This document shows positions 11,448 through 18,821 of a stretch of 64,000 nucleotides of DNA, one piece after another. The stretch covers positions 2,602,001-2,666,000 of the forward strand of contig NZ_AP014583.1 in NCBI RefSeq assembly GCF_000828715.1, read 5' to 3'. The first letter of the stretch is position 1. Every line of letters starts with the position of its first letter. The notes beneath the pieces are model-generated. The model saw nothing but the letters and a program-made list of their open reading frames with translations, was not told where the DNA came from and did not search any database. The position numbers and the translations under genes are program-made. Source of the DNA: Winogradskyella sp. PG-2. Lineage in GTDB: Bacteria; Bacteroidota; Bacteroidia; Flavobacteriales; Flavobacteriaceae.

Positions 11448-12422
11448 ATGTCAGATTTTAATATCAAACCATACAATTCATCAGATAAAATTATTTGGGA
11501 TGACTTTGCTTCAAAAAGTAATCAAGATACTTTTTTGTTTCAACGCGATTTTATAGATTATCATAGCGAAAGATTTCAAGATTTTTCTTTAATGATTTAT
11601 AAAGGAGATAAGCTTATCGCATTATTACCAGCGAATGTAAAGGATAAGATTTTATATTCTCATCAAGGATTGAGTTATGGTGGTCTAATTATATGGTCAC
11701 AAACTAGGTTTAATGATTATGTAAATATTGTACAAGCCGTTCTAAAATATATAGATAGCAAGTCTATCGAACAGTTTTTTATTAAAGCTTTACCTTCTAT
11801 ATATAATGAGCTTATAAGTGAAGAGTGGAACTACATTGCAAACAGTTTAGATGTTAAAATAGAAACTACAGACAGCTATTTTATAATAGATAATTCAAAA
11901 GACTATGCGCCAAATAGAAATAGAAGGAGAGCTTTAAAAAATGCTGAATCACAATCAATTGAAATTGTTGATGATGACATTGATTTTTTTTGGGAATATA
12001 TACTATCCAAAAACCTAAAAAATAAATTTGGCATTAAACCAGTTCATACTATTGAAGAAATAAAACTTTTAATAAACCGTTTTCCTAATAACATTAAGTT
12101 TTATGCAACAAAAATCAATGACACTTTAACAGCTGGAGTTGTACTGTTTGAAACAAAGCATGTGGCACATTTTCAATATAGTTCTGGAAATGAAGAGTGT
12201 TCTGAAACAGGTTCTTTAGATGTTTTGTTTCATCATATTATTGAAAAATACCAAAACAAAAAATATATTAGTTTTGGAAGCTCTTCCACTGATAAAAGCT
12301 TAAAAGTTAGTAAAGGATTAATGTATTGGAAAGAGAGTTTTGGAGCTAGATTAATTACACAAAACACTTATGCTATTAATCCATGTAACCGTGATAATTT
12401 AAAAGCAATTTTTAATGATTAA
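11448..12422 (+). CDS. FemAB/GNAT-like acyltransferase
   Basis: A 324-residue soluble protein resembling the FemAB-like branch of GNAT acyltransferases. It has an N-terminal WDDFASKSNQDTFLFQRDF stretch, a middle NRNRRRALKNAE segment, and a C-terminal AGVVLFETKHVAHFQYSSG core. The ATG at 11448 is chosen; a TTG sits just before it. Its stop overlaps the aminotransferase start by 8 bases. Because it is coupled to a sugar aminotransferase, N-acylation of the resulting amino sugar is an attractive inferred role, taking the part of FdtC/QdtC. Confidence 0.65.
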   Translation: MSDFNIKPYNSSDKIIWDDFASKSNQDTFLFQRDFIDYHSERFQDFSLMIYKGDKLIALLPANVKDKILYSHQGLSYGGLIIWSQTRFNDYVNIVQAVLKYIDSKSIEQFFIKALPSIYNELISEEWNYIANSLDVKIETTDSYFIIDNSKDYAPNRNRRRALKNAESQSIEIVDDDIDFFWEYILSKNLKNKFGIKPVHTIEEIKLLINRFPNNIKFYATKINDTLTAGVVLFETKHVAHFQYSSGNEECSETGSLDVLFHHIIEKYQNKKYISFGSSSTDKSLKVSKGLMYWKESFGARLITQNTYAINPCNRDNLKAIFND

Positions 12423-13518
12423 GTTTTTAGATCTACATAAAATCAATCAACGGTTTCAAGACGAATTTCAAATTATATTTAGTAAGTCTCTAGAGGATTC
12501 ATATTTTATTTTAGGTAAAAACGTTACAAGATTTGAAAATGAATTTGCTGACTATTGCGGAGCCAAACATTGTGTAGGTACCGCAAATGGATTAGATGCG
12601 CTAACGTTGATTCTAAAAGGCTACATTCAACTAGGGAAATTAGAAAAAGGAGATAAAGTTATTGTGCCTGCAAATACATTTATTGCTACAATTTTATCTG
12701 TGATACACGCTGAGTTAGTTCCTGTTTTAGTTGAGCCTAATCCAGTTACTTATAATTTATCTTCAGAAAGTGTTATAGAACAACTTCAAGATGATGTAAA
12801 AGCAATTGTTATGGTGCATTTATATGGGCAAATAGCAGATGTTGAAGGCCTCAATCAAATTGCAAAAGAACATAATTTACTCTTATTAGAAGATGCAGCT
12901 CAGGCACATGGAGCCGTTGCTAATTATAAAAATAGTAAAACAGGTAATCTTTCTCATGCTGCAGCATTTAGCTTTTATCCCAGTAAAAATTTAGGCGCAT
13001 TGGGTGATGGTGGTGCTGTGACTACAAATGATTCAGATTTATTTGAAGTTATTAAATTACTCCGTAATTATGGAAGTAAAGAAAAATATCAAAATGAAAT
13101 TATTGGTTATAACAGTAGGTTAGATGATCTTCAAGCTGCTTTTTTGAGTGTAAAATTGAAAACCCTAGATACAGATAACCAAAGGCGAAGAGTCATTGCT
13201 AATGCGTATTTAAATAAAATTGTAAACGCAAGAATTAAACTGCCATTTTATAACGGTTCTAAAAATCATGTGTTTTATGCTTTTGTAATTGAAGTTGAAG
13301 ATCGTGAAGATTTTATTCAATTTTTAAATAAGCATAATATTCAATTTTTAATTCATTATCCAATTCCTCCACATCAGCAAAACGCATTGTCTAGTTTGTC
13401 GGTTTTAAGTTTACCAAAAACGGAGAGAATACACAAAAGAATTATAAGTTTACCTATTAGTCCAGTAATGGCAGATAGTGAAGTGCAAACCGTTATAAAC
13501 GTTTTAAATACCTACTAA
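12415..13518 (+). CDS. DegT/DnrJ/EryC1/StrS sugar aminotransferase (FdtB-like)
   Basis: A PLP-dependent transaminase of nucleotide sugars. The 367-residue length is normal. Visible motifs are GTANGLDAL (residues 55-63), VPANTFIATILS (84-95), LLEDAAQAHGA (157-167), and the PLP lysine Lys191 in FYPSKNLGALGDGG. It overlaps the acyltransferase gene by 8 bases, and the flippase gene begins at the next base after its stop. With the FdtA-like ketoisomerase at 18411 it could make a 3-amino-3,6-dideoxyhexose (Fuc3N or Qui3N type). FdtB-type specificity is inferred from that partner, not from its own sequence. Confidence 0.88.
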   Translation: MIKFLDLHKINQRFQDEFQIIFSKSLEDSYFILGKNVTRFENEFADYCGAKHCVGTANGLDALTLILKGYIQLGKLEKGDKVIVPANTFIATILSVIHAELVPVLVEPNPVTYNLSSESVIEQLQDDVKAIVMVHLYGQIADVEGLNQIAKEHNLLLLEDAAQAHGAVANYKNSKTGNLSHAAAFSFYPSKNLGALGDGGAVTTNDSDLFEVIKLLRNYGSKEKYQNEIIGYNSRLDDLQAAFLSVKLKTLDTDNQRRRVIANAYLNKIVNARIKLPFYNGSKNHVFYAFVIEVEDREDFIQFLNKHNIQFLIHYPIPPHQQNALSSLSVLSLPKTERIHKRIISLPISPVMADSEVQTVINVLNTY

Positions 13519-14829
13519 TTGAAAAAGTTTTTTAACTATATAAATAATGAGGTTCTGGTAAAAGCTGCGAGTCTGAATACTGCTAATATTAGTGTTAAGA
13601 TTATTGCAGGAATTTTGATTTCTAAATTCATAGCGGTACATATTGGTCCACAAGGTATGGCACTGATTGGTAACCTAAGAAATTTTGTAAGTTCAGTACA
13701 ATCGGTTGCTATTTCTGGACTCTATAAAGGTGTTGTAAAATATATAAGTCAATGTAAAGCTAATGTTGATGAGCTTACTAAAACATTGTCCACGGTATTT
13801 TATTTTGGTTTTTTCTCATCTTTATTTTTAGCTTTTTTATGCTATTACAATGCTGAGTTTATTAATGATTTTATTTTCTCTACCAACTATAATTATGCCT
13901 ATATTATTGAGACTTTGGCACTAGTATTACCATTCTATGCCTTAAATATGTTTGCCTTTTCTATAATGAATGGGTTTGCTAAGTATAAAATTCTGTTGAT
14001 TATAAATATTACCGGACAGATTTTAGGGCTTTTGGTGACTTTACTTTTGATATGGCAAGAGAACATTGATGGTGCTCTAATAGCTGTAGTTATTACTCCA
14101 GCGCTTAATTTATTAATTACATTAGTTGGTATTGTTTTTAGACAGAATTTAATGTCTTCACTTAAGATTACTGATATAAGCATTTCTATATTAAATAAAT
14201 TGAGTCCTTATATGATTATGGCCTTAGTTTCCGCAATTGCTTTACCAATTGTAATGATAATCATTAGAAATTACCTTATTTCTGAAATAGGTATTAAAGA
14301 GGCTGGCTATTGGACGGCTATGACTAGAGTTTCTGATTATTATTTAATGTTTATCAACTCTTTAATGGTACTATATATATTACCGCGGTTTGCGGAAATC
14401 AATTCAAGGAAAGAGTTTAGAAAAGAAGTTTTTAACTTTTATAAAACTGTAATGCCAGTTTTTGCAATAATTTTAATTATTATTTATCTAAGTAGGTCTA
14501 TATTGATTAATATATTATTTACTGAAGATTTTAGACCAGTTGAAGATTTGTTTGGCTACCAAATTTTAGGCGATTTTATGCGAGTTCTATCTATGGTTAT
14601 TGCTTATCAGTTTTTAGCAAAAAAGATGTTTGCGCACTTTATAATTTTAGAAGTCTTCCTTTTATTAATTATGTACTTTTCTAGTATTTATCTTATTGAT
14701 GTTTTTGGACTTAAAGGTGCAGTAATGGGACATTGTTTAAGTTATGTCATGCACTTTGGAATAATAGTACTAATTTTTGGAAGTTCTTTATTTGGAGTTC
14801 TTGGAGGAGAAGGTATGGATGATTATTAA
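13519..14829 (+). CDS. WzxE-like polysaccharide flippase (copy 1)
   Basis: A 436-residue MATE/MOP-superfamily transporter with about 12 helices that would flip undecaprenyl-linked repeat units across the inner membrane. It resembles WzxE: an N-terminal VKIIAGILISKFIAVHIGPQ, then LRNFVSSVQS, GVVKYISQ, and a C-terminal FGYQILGDFMRVLS. The start is the TTG at 13519, immediately after the aminotransferase stop. A second WzxE-like gene follows 10 bases downstream. The pair is diverged, so both copies are probably functional rather than a recent duplication. Confidence 0.87.
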   Translation: MKKFFNYINNEVLVKAASLNTANISVKIIAGILISKFIAVHIGPQGMALIGNLRNFVSSVQSVAISGLYKGVVKYISQCKANVDELTKTLSTVFYFGFFSSLFLAFLCYYNAEFINDFIFSTNYNYAYIIETLALVLPFYALNMFAFSIMNGFAKYKILLIINITGQILGLLVTLLLIWQENIDGALIAVVITPALNLLITLVGIVFRQNLMSSLKITDISISILNKLSPYMIMALVSAIALPIVMIIIRNYLISEIGIKEAGYWTAMTRVSDYYLMFINSLMVLYILPRFAEINSRKEFRKEVFNFYKTVMPVFAIILIIIYLSRSILINILFTEDFRPVEDLFGYQILGDFMRVLSMVIAYQFLAKKMFAHFIILEVFLLLIMYFSSIYLIDVFGLKGAVMGHCLSYVMHFGIIVLIFGSSLFGVLGGEGMDDY

Positions 14830-14839
14830 ATAAGTAGAC

Positions 14840-16120
14840 GTGAAACTTCCAAAATTTATAAGTAATAACCTCGTATTAAAAATCACTTCTGTTAATGCTG
14901 TAGTTATTGCAATTAGACTAATTGTTTCTGTTTTTATTCAGCGTATTTTGGCGCTTACAGTTGGTGAAGCAGGTATTGCAAATATTGGCCAAGTTCGTAA
15001 TTTAATTGCAATGTTATCGAGTACTACAACGCTTGGTGCGTTTAGTGGTGTTGTGAAATATGTTGCTGAATTTAAAGAGAATAGACCTGAAATTTCTAGA
15101 CTTTTTTCTACTGCAACTTTATTTCTTTTAATAGGCTCACTTTTATCAGCTGCAATATTATTTTTTACTGCAGAATTTCTGTCTTCTTATATTTTTAATT
15201 CTAGTGATTATGTTTATGTATTTCATTTGTTAGCAGTAGTTGTTCCTTTTATTGGATTAGGAAGGCTTATAAATGGCGTTGTAAGTGGTCTGTCAGATTA
15301 TAAAAAATATGCTAAAATTGAACTTATAGGTTACCTACTAGTTACAGGCTTGCTTGTATTTGGTTTATATACTAATGAATTAAAAGGTGTAATTCTTGCT
15401 ATAGCCTTAGCACCAATTATTCAGTTATTAGTTTTAATTTTTGTATTTGGTAAAACTTTAAAGACCTATGTTAAACTTAATTCAATAAAACTTAATCTCA
15501 GTTATAAAAATCAATTATTGGCATTTACATTAATGTCTTTTGTTTCTGCTTTTTTAATCAATTTTGTAGAGTTAGATATTAGAACCGTTATTACAGATGA
15601 AATTAATATTAACGAAGCTGGTTACTGGACTGCGATTACATTTATATCTAAAAATTATATGGTGTTTGCTACAGGTATGTTCACATTATATGTATTGCCA
15701 AAATTTTCGAGTATTAAAACCAAAGAGGAATTTAAACAAGAAGTTTTACATATTTATAAATCTATTTTGCCAGTTTTTGGTTTAGGCATGTTATTAGTTT
15801 TTCTTTTAAGGAATTTAATTATCGAAATTGTTTATCCAGAATTTAAAGGCATGGAACCACTCTTTAAATGGCAGTTACTTGGTGATTTTATTAGATTGGC
15901 TGCTTTGGTTTTATCATATCAATTTTTAGCAAAACGGATGGTGAAGAGTTTTGTAATTACTGAGCTCATCTCTTTGGCTTTATTTTATATTTTTACTACT
16001 GTTTTTATAAAGATGTATGGTACCGAAGGTGTTGTTATCGCTCACTTTGTAAGATATATTCTTTACTTTATTGTTGTTGTCTTTTTTGTACAGTATAATT
16101 TTAAAAGCTTAAAAAGCTAA
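14840..16120 (+). CDS. WzxE-like polysaccharide flippase (copy 2)
   Basis: A 426-residue paralogue of the preceding flippase with the same layout: VFIQRILALTVGEAGIANIG near the N-terminus, LGAFSGVVKYVAEF, EAGYWTAITFISKNYMVF mid-protein, and FKWQLLGDFIRLAA near the C-terminus. About 12 membrane helices. The start is the GTG at 14840. Shared motifs with copy 1 include GVVKY, EAGYWTA, LPKF/LPRF and LGDF.R, but overall similarity is moderate. Its 3' end overlaps by 4 bases the minus-strand glycosyltransferase gene. Confidence 0.87.
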   Translation: MKLPKFISNNLVLKITSVNAVVIAIRLIVSVFIQRILALTVGEAGIANIGQVRNLIAMLSSTTTLGAFSGVVKYVAEFKENRPEISRLFSTATLFLLIGSLLSAAILFFTAEFLSSYIFNSSDYVYVFHLLAVVVPFIGLGRLINGVVSGLSDYKKYAKIELIGYLLVTGLLVFGLYTNELKGVILAIALAPIIQLLVLIFVFGKTLKTYVKLNSIKLNLSYKNQLLAFTLMSFVSAFLINFVELDIRTVITDEININEAGYWTAITFISKNYMVFATGMFTLYVLPKFSSIKTKEEFKQEVLHIYKSILPVFGLGMLLVFLLRNLIIEIVYPEFKGMEPLFKWQLLGDFIRLAALVLSYQFLAKRMVKSFVITELISLALFYIFTTVFIKMYGTEGVVIAHFVRYILYFIVVVFFVQYNFKSLKS

Positions 16121-17261
16121 GATGATTTAGAGTTCCATAATTTTAAATAGTTTTTTGCACAATTGATATGATCGTGGTGTTGCTCTACAAATTTTCTTGC
16201 ATTAATCGAAATTTCAGTAATTTTTTCAGGATTAGTAATTAAAGTTTCAAGCTTTAATGCGATGTATTTTGCATTAGGTAATGCATTTATTGCTACTGAA
16301 TCTTCTTTTAATTTAAAATAATCTAACCATTCTTTTTCTGCGCCAGTAAACACTACCTTACCTTTTGCCATAGCTTCTAACGCATTAAAACCTTGATCGT
16401 AAGCATAGATCTGATCTAATAGTATATGAGCTTTGTCAAAACTAGTTATGTAGTCTTTATATGGTAGGTTTTTAGCAGTAATGATTTCAATTTTGTCTGC
16501 ATATTTGTCTGCAATAATATTTAAAGCTAATTCAAAAATATCATTACCTTTCTTATAATAGTTATAGGTGTTAATACCATGAAAAATAACAATTTTGCCT
16601 TCAATATTTGAGGTTTGATAAGGAAGTTCACTAAGATTAATAGCGTGAGGAATCATACCTAAATATTTCGGATGATTTTCTAACGGAATGTGGTAATCTA
16701 AATCATTGGCAATAACACCTTCAATAGTTTTAAATATATGCTGGTGCAATTTTATATGCTCATTAGATAAATAGCTCAAAGCAGGTGAGAAGTCTTTTTT
16801 AGAGCCTTTATTTTCAAAGTAAGGTGTTAAAATATCATACCTAAATTTTTTGTCATAGGCATAAGAAACACTTGGATAGTCTAATCCTGCTGAGACTAAA
16901 AACATACTCTTATTCCAGTCTGTTAACCAATCAAATATTTGTCGCTGATGTTTTCGTTCAAAATCAAAAGGTGCTTCATTAATAAATTGAACAATATCAT
17001 AATTAGATAGTAAATCTCTTTTAGATTTAATTTGGCGCTTAATTGCAACAGCAGAAATATCTATACCAGTTACCCTTTTAATTAATGACCTTATTTTTTT
17101 AAAAGAAAAGATGTAAAGTAATCTTTAAACTCAATATCAACATCTACTTTTTTAAATCCATCTCTGGTACTTGCAACTACGGCAGTATGATTTAGCGATT
17201 CTAGCCCTTTTTTAATATTCCAATGCGCTCTATTAAATTCACCAAAAAGTAAAATCTTCAT
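16117..17261 (-). pseudogene. Glycosyltransferase split by a -1 frameshift at an A7 run
   Basis: Two minus-strand reading frames together make one GT-B glycosyltransferase of about 380 residues. The N-terminal part (start ATG at 17261 or 17276; KILLFGEFNRAHWNIKKGL) stops at the TAA at 17091-17093. The C-terminal part lies one frame away and is open without a stop from 17094 down to 16117, including 63 codons before its first ATG at 16905. The junction reads TTA AAA AAA TAA on the coding strand; a -1 slip gives AAA AAA ATA AGG and restores the protein. The C-terminal half has the GT4-like FNALEAMAKGKVVFTGAEKEW region. It may be a true disruption, a sequencing error in the homopolymer, or programmed frameshifting. 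Confidence 0.75.
17091..17102 (-). other. A_AAA_AAA slippery heptamer directly before UAA
   Basis: On the minus strand the codons are TTA AAA AAA TAA, so the heptamer A AAA AAA is in the correct phase for -1 slippage, and the zero-frame stop follows immediately. A -1 shift leads exactly into the frame of the downstream glycosyltransferase half. No strong stimulatory hairpin is obvious downstream. Confidence 0.6.
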
Positions 17262-17280
17262 CTGTTGAGGTTTCATTTAA

Positions 17281-17305: not shown

Positions 17306-18400
17306 ATGCAAAGTAAACATAAAAAAAGAATCTGTATTGTATCTCGATCATTAAGTGAGGGAGGCGCAGATAGAGTTGCTGCAATGCAATCGATTTTTTT
17401 AAGTGATTTAGGTTATCAGGTTTTTATTGTAACTATTCTAGATGGTATTGCTTACCCTTACAGAGGTGAATTGTTAAACTTAGGTAAAATTAAAAAGCGA
17501 AATGATACCATTATTGGACGTTTTAAGCGTTTATTGTTATTTAAGAATTATTTAAAATCTAATAAAATAGATATTATCATAGATCATCGTGTGAGATCTA
17601 AACCATTTTCAGAATATATAATCTCAGGTTTCATATATCCCAAAAAGGTAATTTACATGGTACATAATTATGCCATCGACTTATACTTTCCACCTTTTAA
17701 ATGGCTGACTAAACTGTTTTATAAAAATTCTAAAAGTATTGTATCCGTTTCAAAAGGTATTGATACTTTAGTGAAGAAAACTTATGATTTTAATAACCAA
17801 ACAACGATTTATAATCCAATAGACTTTAACTACATTAATGATCTAAAAAATGATGAAATTAGTGAATCTTCATCGTTTATATTTTGGTATGGTCGTTTTG
17901 AGGAAGAACAAAAAAATATGTCTTTGTTAGTAGATGCGTATCAAAAATCTGAATTACCAAGAAAGAATATAAAACTCATTCTCATGGGTAATGGAAAAGA
18001 TAAAGAGATGATAAAATCCAAGATATCAAGTTTCGATAATAATCATATGATAGATATTATTCCATTTTCAACAAATCCTTTTGCCTATATTAATGCATCA
18101 AAATTTACAGTGTTATCGAGCCGATTTGAAGGTTTTCCAATGACGGTTTTAGAGTCTTTAGCTTGTGGAATTCCTGTTGTAAGTGTACAATATCAAAATT
18201 ATCAAGATGGTGTAATTGTTAATAATATTAATGGTTTACTAGTAGAGAATGACAATCCCGAAATACTTGCTGAGGCATTTAATCGTTTTATTAATGACGA
18301 AAAATTATATCTTAGCTGTAAAGCTAATGCAAAGCAAAGTGTAATGACCTTTGCGGTAGATAATATTGCTGAACAATGGAAAGATTTAATTGAAGCATAA
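17306..18400 (+). CDS. GT4-family glycosyltransferase
   Basis: A 364-residue GT-B enzyme. The N-terminal acceptor domain begins RICIVSRSLSEGGADRVA, including the glycine-rich loop. The C-terminal donor domain has FWYGRFEEEQKN (193-204), LILMGNG (224-230) and the E-x7-E signature SRFEGFPMTVLESLACGIP (Glu275 and Glu283). It probably adds one sugar of the repeat unit on the cytoplasmic face. The FdtA-like gene begins 10 bases after its stop, so the two are co-transcribed. Confidence 0.9.
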   Translation: MQSKHKKRICIVSRSLSEGGADRVAAMQSIFLSDLGYQVFIVTILDGIAYPYRGELLNLGKIKKRNDTIIGRFKRLLLFKNYLKSNKIDIIIDHRVRSKPFSEYIISGFIYPKKVIYMVHNYAIDLYFPPFKWLTKLFYKNSKSIVSVSKGIDTLVKKTYDFNNQTTIYNPIDFNYINDLKNDEISESSSFIFWYGRFEEEQKNMSLLVDAYQKSELPRKNIKLILMGNGKDKEMIKSKISSFDNNHMIDIIPFSTNPFAYINASKFTVLSSRFEGFPMTVLESLACGIPVVSVQYQNYQDGVIVNNINGLLVENDNPEILAEAFNRFINDEKLYLSCKANAKQSVMTFAVDNIAEQWKDLIEA

Positions 18401-18410
18401 ATGAAGAGTA

Positions 18411-18821
18411 ATGAAAACAAATATTGAAGATGTTTCAGTAATTGAAATTCCTAGGGTACATGATGAACGTGGACTTTTAGCCGTAATTGAGAATGATATA
18501 ATTCCTTTTGAGATTAAAAGGGTTTATTATTTGTACGATGTGCCTAGTGATGCTTTTAGAGGCGGACATGCACACAAGAAATTGCAACAATTAATCATTC
18601 CACTTTCTGGAAGTTTTGATGTCCTTATTAAGGATGGTGAAAATGAACAGACCATTAATTTAAATAAACCTCATAAAGGTTTACTAATAGTACCAGGAAT
18701 ATGGCGTGAGATTGATAATTTTTCTTCTGGTTGTGTTTGTTTGGTTTTAGCGTCTTCGGTTTATGATGAATCTGACTACATAAGAGATTTTAATGATTTT
18801 TTAATTTTTAAAGAGTCTTAA
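18411..18821 (+). CDS. FdtA/WxcM-like dTDP-4-keto-6-deoxyhexose 3,4-ketoisomerase
   Basis: A 136-residue single-domain cupin that would move the keto group of dTDP-4-keto-6-deoxyglucose from C4 to C3 ahead of transamination. Family landmarks are IPRVHDERGLLAVIE (residues 13-27, with Arg20), RVYYLYDVP (37-45), RGGHAHKK (50-57; His53 and His55 are the likely catalytic pair), and VPGIWREIDNFSSG. It follows the GT4 gene and overlaps the convergent GT2 gene by 21 bases. Whether the product is the galacto (Fdt) or gluco (Qdt) epimer cannot be read from the sequence. Confidence 0.88.
   Translation: MKTNIEDVSVIEIPRVHDERGLLAVIENDIIPFEIKRVYYLYDVPSDAFRGGHAHKKLQQLIIPLSGSFDVLIKDGENEQTINLNKPHKGLLIVPGIWREIDNFSSGCVCLVLASSVYDESDYIRDFNDFLIFKES

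Follow-up and report, generated by a model that had tools for sequence, protein, structure and literature searches.

Surface-glycan genes that are switched by a homopolymer are a known system, and programmed -1 frameshifting is known from the transposases of the IS3 family and from dnaX. The latter is also named as a programmed frameshift gene in a passage of PMC5009743, which ranks A_AAA_AAA far below A_AAA_AAG as a shift site in E. coli and reports 12-50% of the transcripts of some frameshifted endosymbiont genes to be restored by slippage at long poly(A) runs. An extract of PMC1088944 reports that a large share of genomes show selection against slippage at runs of nine A/T, and that in some bacteria shorter runs may be enough for slippage. 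For pyrosequencing, a section of PMC5822529 states that accuracy drops as the homopolymer lengthens; in a test described there the detection of an eight-A allele was mostly below 75%. In the excerpt available of PMC3711429, which surveys frame transitions, homology-validated singletons are expected to be sequencing errors and not genuine indels. A literature search for homopolymer phase variation of glycosyltransferases in flavobacteria listed a single paper, which concerns flagellar glycosylation in Clostridium.

Winogradskyella sp. PG-2 is a seawater isolate (PMC4038882). Its genome consists of a single contig of 3,811,479 bp, of which we analysed a window of 64,000 nucleotides (NZ_AP014583.1, positions 2,602,001 to 2,666,000 of the forward strand); all positions below refer to this window unless genome positions are named. 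The minus strand carries a glycosyltransferase gene in two pieces. The N-terminal piece (17094..17261) comprises 56 codons in the zero frame, from the ATG at 17261 to a TAA stop at 17093-17091. An alternative in-frame ATG at 17276 would lengthen it by five codons; the proteins of the relatives begin at the position of 17261. At the junction (17091..17102) the zero frame reads TTA (17102-17100) AAA AAA TAA, with a run of seven A (17100-17094) in A_AAA_AAA phase. The C-terminal piece (16117..17094) lies in the -1 frame and has 325 codons. It begins with ATA at 17094, followed by AGG TCA, runs for 63 codons without a stop to an ATG at 16905 and continues from there to the stop codon at 16119-16117, including an ORF of 262 aa (16117-16905). 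The two pieces are 56 aa (P0001) and 324 aa (P0002) long. Both the zero-frame reading of the junction and the -1 slip through 63 stop-free codons into the downstream ORF had been described in the initial annotation, and coordinates and sequence proved correct. Its proposal of one enzyme of about 380 residues in two pieces agrees with our alignments, in which both pieces match one intact relative protein of about 380 aa. The term "textbook slippery site" holds for the in-phase heptamer and the adjacent stop, but the heptamer itself is commonplace in the genome.

The C-terminal piece P0002 scored 28.1 bits against PF13524 (Glyco_trans_1_2), above the curated cut-off of 25, and 19.6 bits against PF00534, under the cut-off of 26.4; no NCBIfam model reached its cut-off for this piece. 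A profile built from 30 intact relatives matched three bacterial glycosyltransferase chains among the solved structures, weakly (E 0.0035-0.004) and with a similarity confined to the C-terminal part (last ~90 residues). The PF13524 match supports the annotation as a glycosyltransferase, while the label GT-B, which had also been given, is a prediction from family profiles only. A search of about 5.8 billion proteins with the C-terminal piece returned 4770 relatives at E <= 0.001. Among the best 120 of these, the own entry aside, the nearest shows 78% identity, and 117 of the 119 have a length of 377-393 residues. The sole near-identical entry among the matches listed is the 262-residue ORF of the PG-2 genome itself, and searches of the protein collection and of the genus and family genomes found no second member of the species. 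The N-terminal piece aligns without gaps with the start of 18 intact relatives (residues 1 to 56). The possibility of two separate genes was rejected, since both pieces match one protein; in the orthologues a single protein spans both sides of the junction, not two unrelated ones.

Each of 56 distinct loci of relatives (L002-L057) is open across the site, in a single frame of 377-445 codons. Eight more named records (L058-L065) are also open, six of which look like repeats of the same sequences. Within the genus, 56 of the 57 matches are open for at least 377 codons and the remaining one (G422) for 350; the 28 of them that are not among the loci above have open frames of 350-397 codons. G422 also showed an interruption of the same glycosyltransferase near its C-terminus, away from the PG-2 site (G422:C77:38776-39734). 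The frame break in PG-2 was recovered by homology with references from each of four relatives. Junction codons could be displayed for 55 loci; the motif search missed L029, where the frame is still open for 400 codons. The longest A run within the six junction codons varies from 2 to 8. It is an in-frame run of eight A in 8 of the 55 relatives, seven A with frame-keeping codons in 10 and fewer in 37. As the run length varies in this way, the A run is a by-product of the Leu-Lys-Lys codons and not a maintained tract.

The split gene belongs to a conserved surface-polysaccharide cluster. On the plus strand of the window, Pfam matches identified a DegT-type aminotransferase (12415-13518), a group 1 glycosyltransferase (17306-18400) and an FdtA-type protein (18411-18821), as well as two flippase-like proteins (13519-14829 and 14840-16120) whose matches are slightly under the cut-off. 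The order of these five genes is kept in all four relatives that were compared. Further members of the cluster are a group 2 glycosyltransferase and a capsule-synthesis-type protein. In 4/4 relatives the glycosyltransferase is flanked by the flippase pair on one side and by the group 1 glycosyltransferase on the other, in an orientation opposite to both; in G426 its cluster position and orientation are the same as in PG-2, and G157 and G429 have one additional ORF on the flippase side. The two flippase-like proteins are paralogues with 34% mutual identity, and their tandem arrangement is kept in the four relatives, which amounts to a doubled flippase within one polysaccharide cluster. Among the other genomes searched, 57 of 67 in Winogradskyella and 154 of 396 in a sample of the family have a match to the glycosyltransferase. 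In the PG-2 genome it is a single-copy gene (search at E 0.001), and a takeover of its function by a second copy was rejected, as none was found at this threshold.

In an alignment of 19 sequences, 104 columns of the C part do not vary among the 18 relatives, and PG-2 retains 103 of them; the same count for intact relatives ranges from 103/103 to 103/110. The terminal branch of PG-2 (0.208) is the median of the 19 tips. Compared with the nearest relative, the C part has a dN of 0.145 and a nearly saturated dS of 3.2; dS is saturated in most pairs and no dN/dS value was derived. This full constraint implies that the break is very recent, or bypassed, or not real, and a long-decayed pseudogene was rejected on the same ground.

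The PG-2 genome was sequenced with 454 single- and paired-end reads at 46.5x and assembled with Newbler 2.7; Sanger reads were used for gap closing and low-quality regions, and the stated error is below 1 in 10,000 (PMC4038882). The apparent break is probably a 454 homopolymer miscall in an ordinary, intact and conserved glycosyltransferase gene. The chromosome itself would then carry a longer A run, which we infer; reported as seven A, this run would place the TAA in frame. The relatives read are intact, and in some of them the A run at the corresponding codons is longer, which speaks for a miscall. Against it, run-length spectra and a homology screen give no clear sign of an error that affects the whole assembly. 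The spectra revealed no clear shortage of eight-base A/T runs in PG-2 compared with four relatives. A simple count of runs behind which a shifted frame stays open gave 77 cases in PG-2 and 60 to 86 in the relatives and was uninformative.

The homology screen compared five genomes and covered 190,184 bases of PG-2 (within 384 kb) and 741,332 bases across the four relatives. It detected two sites in PG-2 and seven in the relatives (0, 3, 3 and 1), of which one and six, respectively, were excluded by eye as effects of the 5' or 3' end. The remaining sites are the PG-2 glycosyltransferase and one break in G338 (T5 run, three references). The glycosyltransferase is the only clear internal break that this screen found across the 190 kb of conserved sequence in PG-2, and errors are thus not rampant. 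A second PG-2 stretch of 400 kb could be compared with the relatives over just 16.6 kb, and therefore an ab initio screen was written, which covered 784 kb of PG-2 and 1.6 Mb of the four relatives. It gave 13 + 22 predictions in PG-2 and 9, 24, 9 and 16 in the relatives. Predictions near the ends of a stretch or near a predicted start were removed, and candidates without a nearby ATG or with a run were retained (12 in PG-2, 18 in the relatives). The pieces of ten PG-2 candidates were inspected, and 10 of these 20 pieces (six candidates) were scanned for families. The result was four single homopolymer-associated breaks in PG-2 (784 kb), a count that excludes transposases and a doubly broken GH2 gene, versus no confirmed break in the relatives (1.6 Mb). 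None of the seven run-associated candidates of the relatives has both pieces in one family: four pairs match two different families and three match by the upstream piece only, and at each of the seven junctions there is a start codon, ATG in six and GTG in one. The 11 run-less candidates of the relatives were judged by eye only. Random one-base deletions were detected in 87/150 and 89/150 cases in the PG-2 stretches and in 72/150, 68/150, 88/150 and 65/150 cases in the relatives, and the ab initio screen is therefore somewhat stronger in PG-2. The chance of four versus none in this small sample is 0.012, or 0.019 if the higher sensitivity in PG-2 is allowed for; it rises to 0.043 to 0.067 if the T5 break of G338 from the other screen is counted. 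The excess may point to miscalls, but it is small.

Besides the glycosyltransferase, three genes of PG-2 display a single frame change within a short frame overlap that holds a homopolymer, the rest of the gene being open. An outer-membrane efflux protein (genome positions 1103397-1104670; L191:15397-16670) is split near an A run, and both pieces match PF02321. Matches with open frames of 439-548 aa (33-52% identity) were found in 33 of the 39 other genomes, and its pieces share one frame in 7/7 relatives' loci tested. A VWA-domain protein (940354-941518; L183:12354-13518) is split near a G run, with matches in 16 of 39 other genomes (390-429 aa, 35-83% identity) and one shared frame in 5/5 loci tested; the rest of the protein is up to 84% identical to intact relatives. 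The third, a small fn3-like protein (2770421-2771093; L079:4421-5093) whose fibronectin type III match is weak and under the cut-off, is split near a T run (T6). Some match to it was found in 12 of 39 genomes, six of them close (60-72% identity, open frames of 236-239 aa), and its pieces share one frame in 3/3 loci tested.

Lesions of other kinds were also seen in PG-2. A GH2 gene (2716738-2717894, L076:10738-11894, and upstream) is shifted out of frame at an A run and, further upstream, interrupted by an in-frame stop codon. It was chosen by eye outside the filter and hence not counted; an intact relative was found in one of 39 other genomes searched (E 1e-40), and the gene looks like a real pseudogene. 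An ABC transporter ATPase gene (825368-826277; L177:17368-18277) has lost its frame at an apparent short tandem duplication, its pieces matching PF00005 positions 3-80 and 87-137. A gene with repeated segments (1029829-1031589; L188:1829-3589), which we take to encode an adhesin-like protein, contains an in-frame TGA. These breaks are not homopolymer miscalls, and real gene loss thus probably also occurs in PG-2. A transposase in two overlapping frames with a nine-A run (2534728-2535947; L070:12728-13947) is presumably IS3-like, and since its layout is usual for programmed frameshifting in such elements, we assume that it is programmed. The further candidates were an IS30-type transposase with A runs (HTH_38 and rve matches), a LuxR-type regulator, a probable pair of overlapping genes and what we take to be a YHYH-type protein.

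Loss of surface-glycan genes is common, and homopolymers are frequent sites of indels. A real and recent one-base contraction of the A run may have inactivated the PG-2 glycosyltransferase, as a young pseudogene or as a null selected in culture that would alter the surface glycan. We regard this as possible, if rather unlikely. It is in line with the lesions outside homopolymers described above, with an own-genome search that gave no second copy able to replace the gene and with a homology screen in which breaks are not clearly in excess in the PG-2 assembly. The contraction would, however, have to be very recent, given a C part without decay, and the 454 origin of the sequence is the cheaper cause, all the more as three other genes of PG-2 have the same type of lesion. 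If the break were real, PG-2 would lack one step of a glycan whose cluster persists in all four of the relatives compared.

A short and a full-length product could also arise at A_AAA_AAA, by programmed -1 frameshifting of the ribosome or by slippage during transcription, but this is very unlikely. The heptamer is in phase, the stop follows directly and the C part is still constrained; the rescue at poly(A) in endosymbionts and the possible slippage below nine bases, as given in the passages cited above (PMC5009743, PMC1088944), would fit as well. The relatives read, however, encode the full protein in one frame, and neither the shift site nor the two-frame layout is conserved. In-frame A_AAA_AAA is frequent: the 323 ORFs of 100 aa or more in the 384 kb around the gene contain it 110 times, and a 400-kb stretch of each of the four relatives has 82 to 106 cases. 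The 91 bases from the run onward fold weakly (z -1.4; 15 of 200 shuffles as stable), and no strong stimulator was seen in this model without pseudoknots. The heptamer is also of the kind that is far less shift-prone in E. coli, and its seven bases compare with the nine A/T at which counter-selection shows in the excerpts of the two sources. We give equally little credence to an accidental low-output switch, in which the seven-A run is real and ribosomal -1 slippage or slippage of the RNA polymerase yields enough full-length enzyme, which would keep the C part under selection.

Phase variation, in which the A run reversibly gains or loses a base and switches the enzyme on and off within the population, is most improbable: a homopolymer inside a surface-polysaccharide gene and the eight A at the site in some relatives would suit it, but the A run varies in length between 2 and 8 among 55 relatives and is thus not kept as a tract, in the 57 matching genomes of the genus the frame continues across the site, and homologues of mutS and mutL are present, over their cut-offs. 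Intact mismatch repair normally keeps short tracts stable, and a loss of mismatch repair was rejected, as both genes were found. Of the four causes listed in the initial annotation, sequencing error thus accounts best for the data and recent mutation comes second, while phase variation of the glycan and programmed frameshifting are unsupported.

For AT-rich genomes finished with 454 reads, A_AAA_AAA beside a stop is an expected signature of a miscall, and split surface-glycan genes in such genomes should not be called phase-variable or recoded without reads.

Compared with known systems, the PG-2 site shares with the homopolymer-switched surface-glycan genes a homopolymer within a glycosyltransferase gene; it differs from them in having no maintained tract and, in the relatives read, no off-state at this site, and in the presence of mismatch repair genes. 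With dnaX and the transposases of the IS3 family it has the A-rich slippery heptamer in common; in contrast to these, it is without a conserved shift site or two products, the downstream structure is weak and the relatives are unsplit. Its intact orthologues in Winogradskyella sp. PC D3.3 (P0007) and Flavobacteriales bacterium ALC-1 (P0010) show 77% identity over 99% of the C part and, unlike the split PG-2 gene, are one continuous protein of 380 residues. Although the genome-wide rate in PG-2 appears modest and is judged here from the assembly alone, the site resembles 454 miscalls in finished genomes in its single-base change within a long A run, as the single lesion of an otherwise intact gene under constraint, and in its origin from a 454/Newbler assembly.
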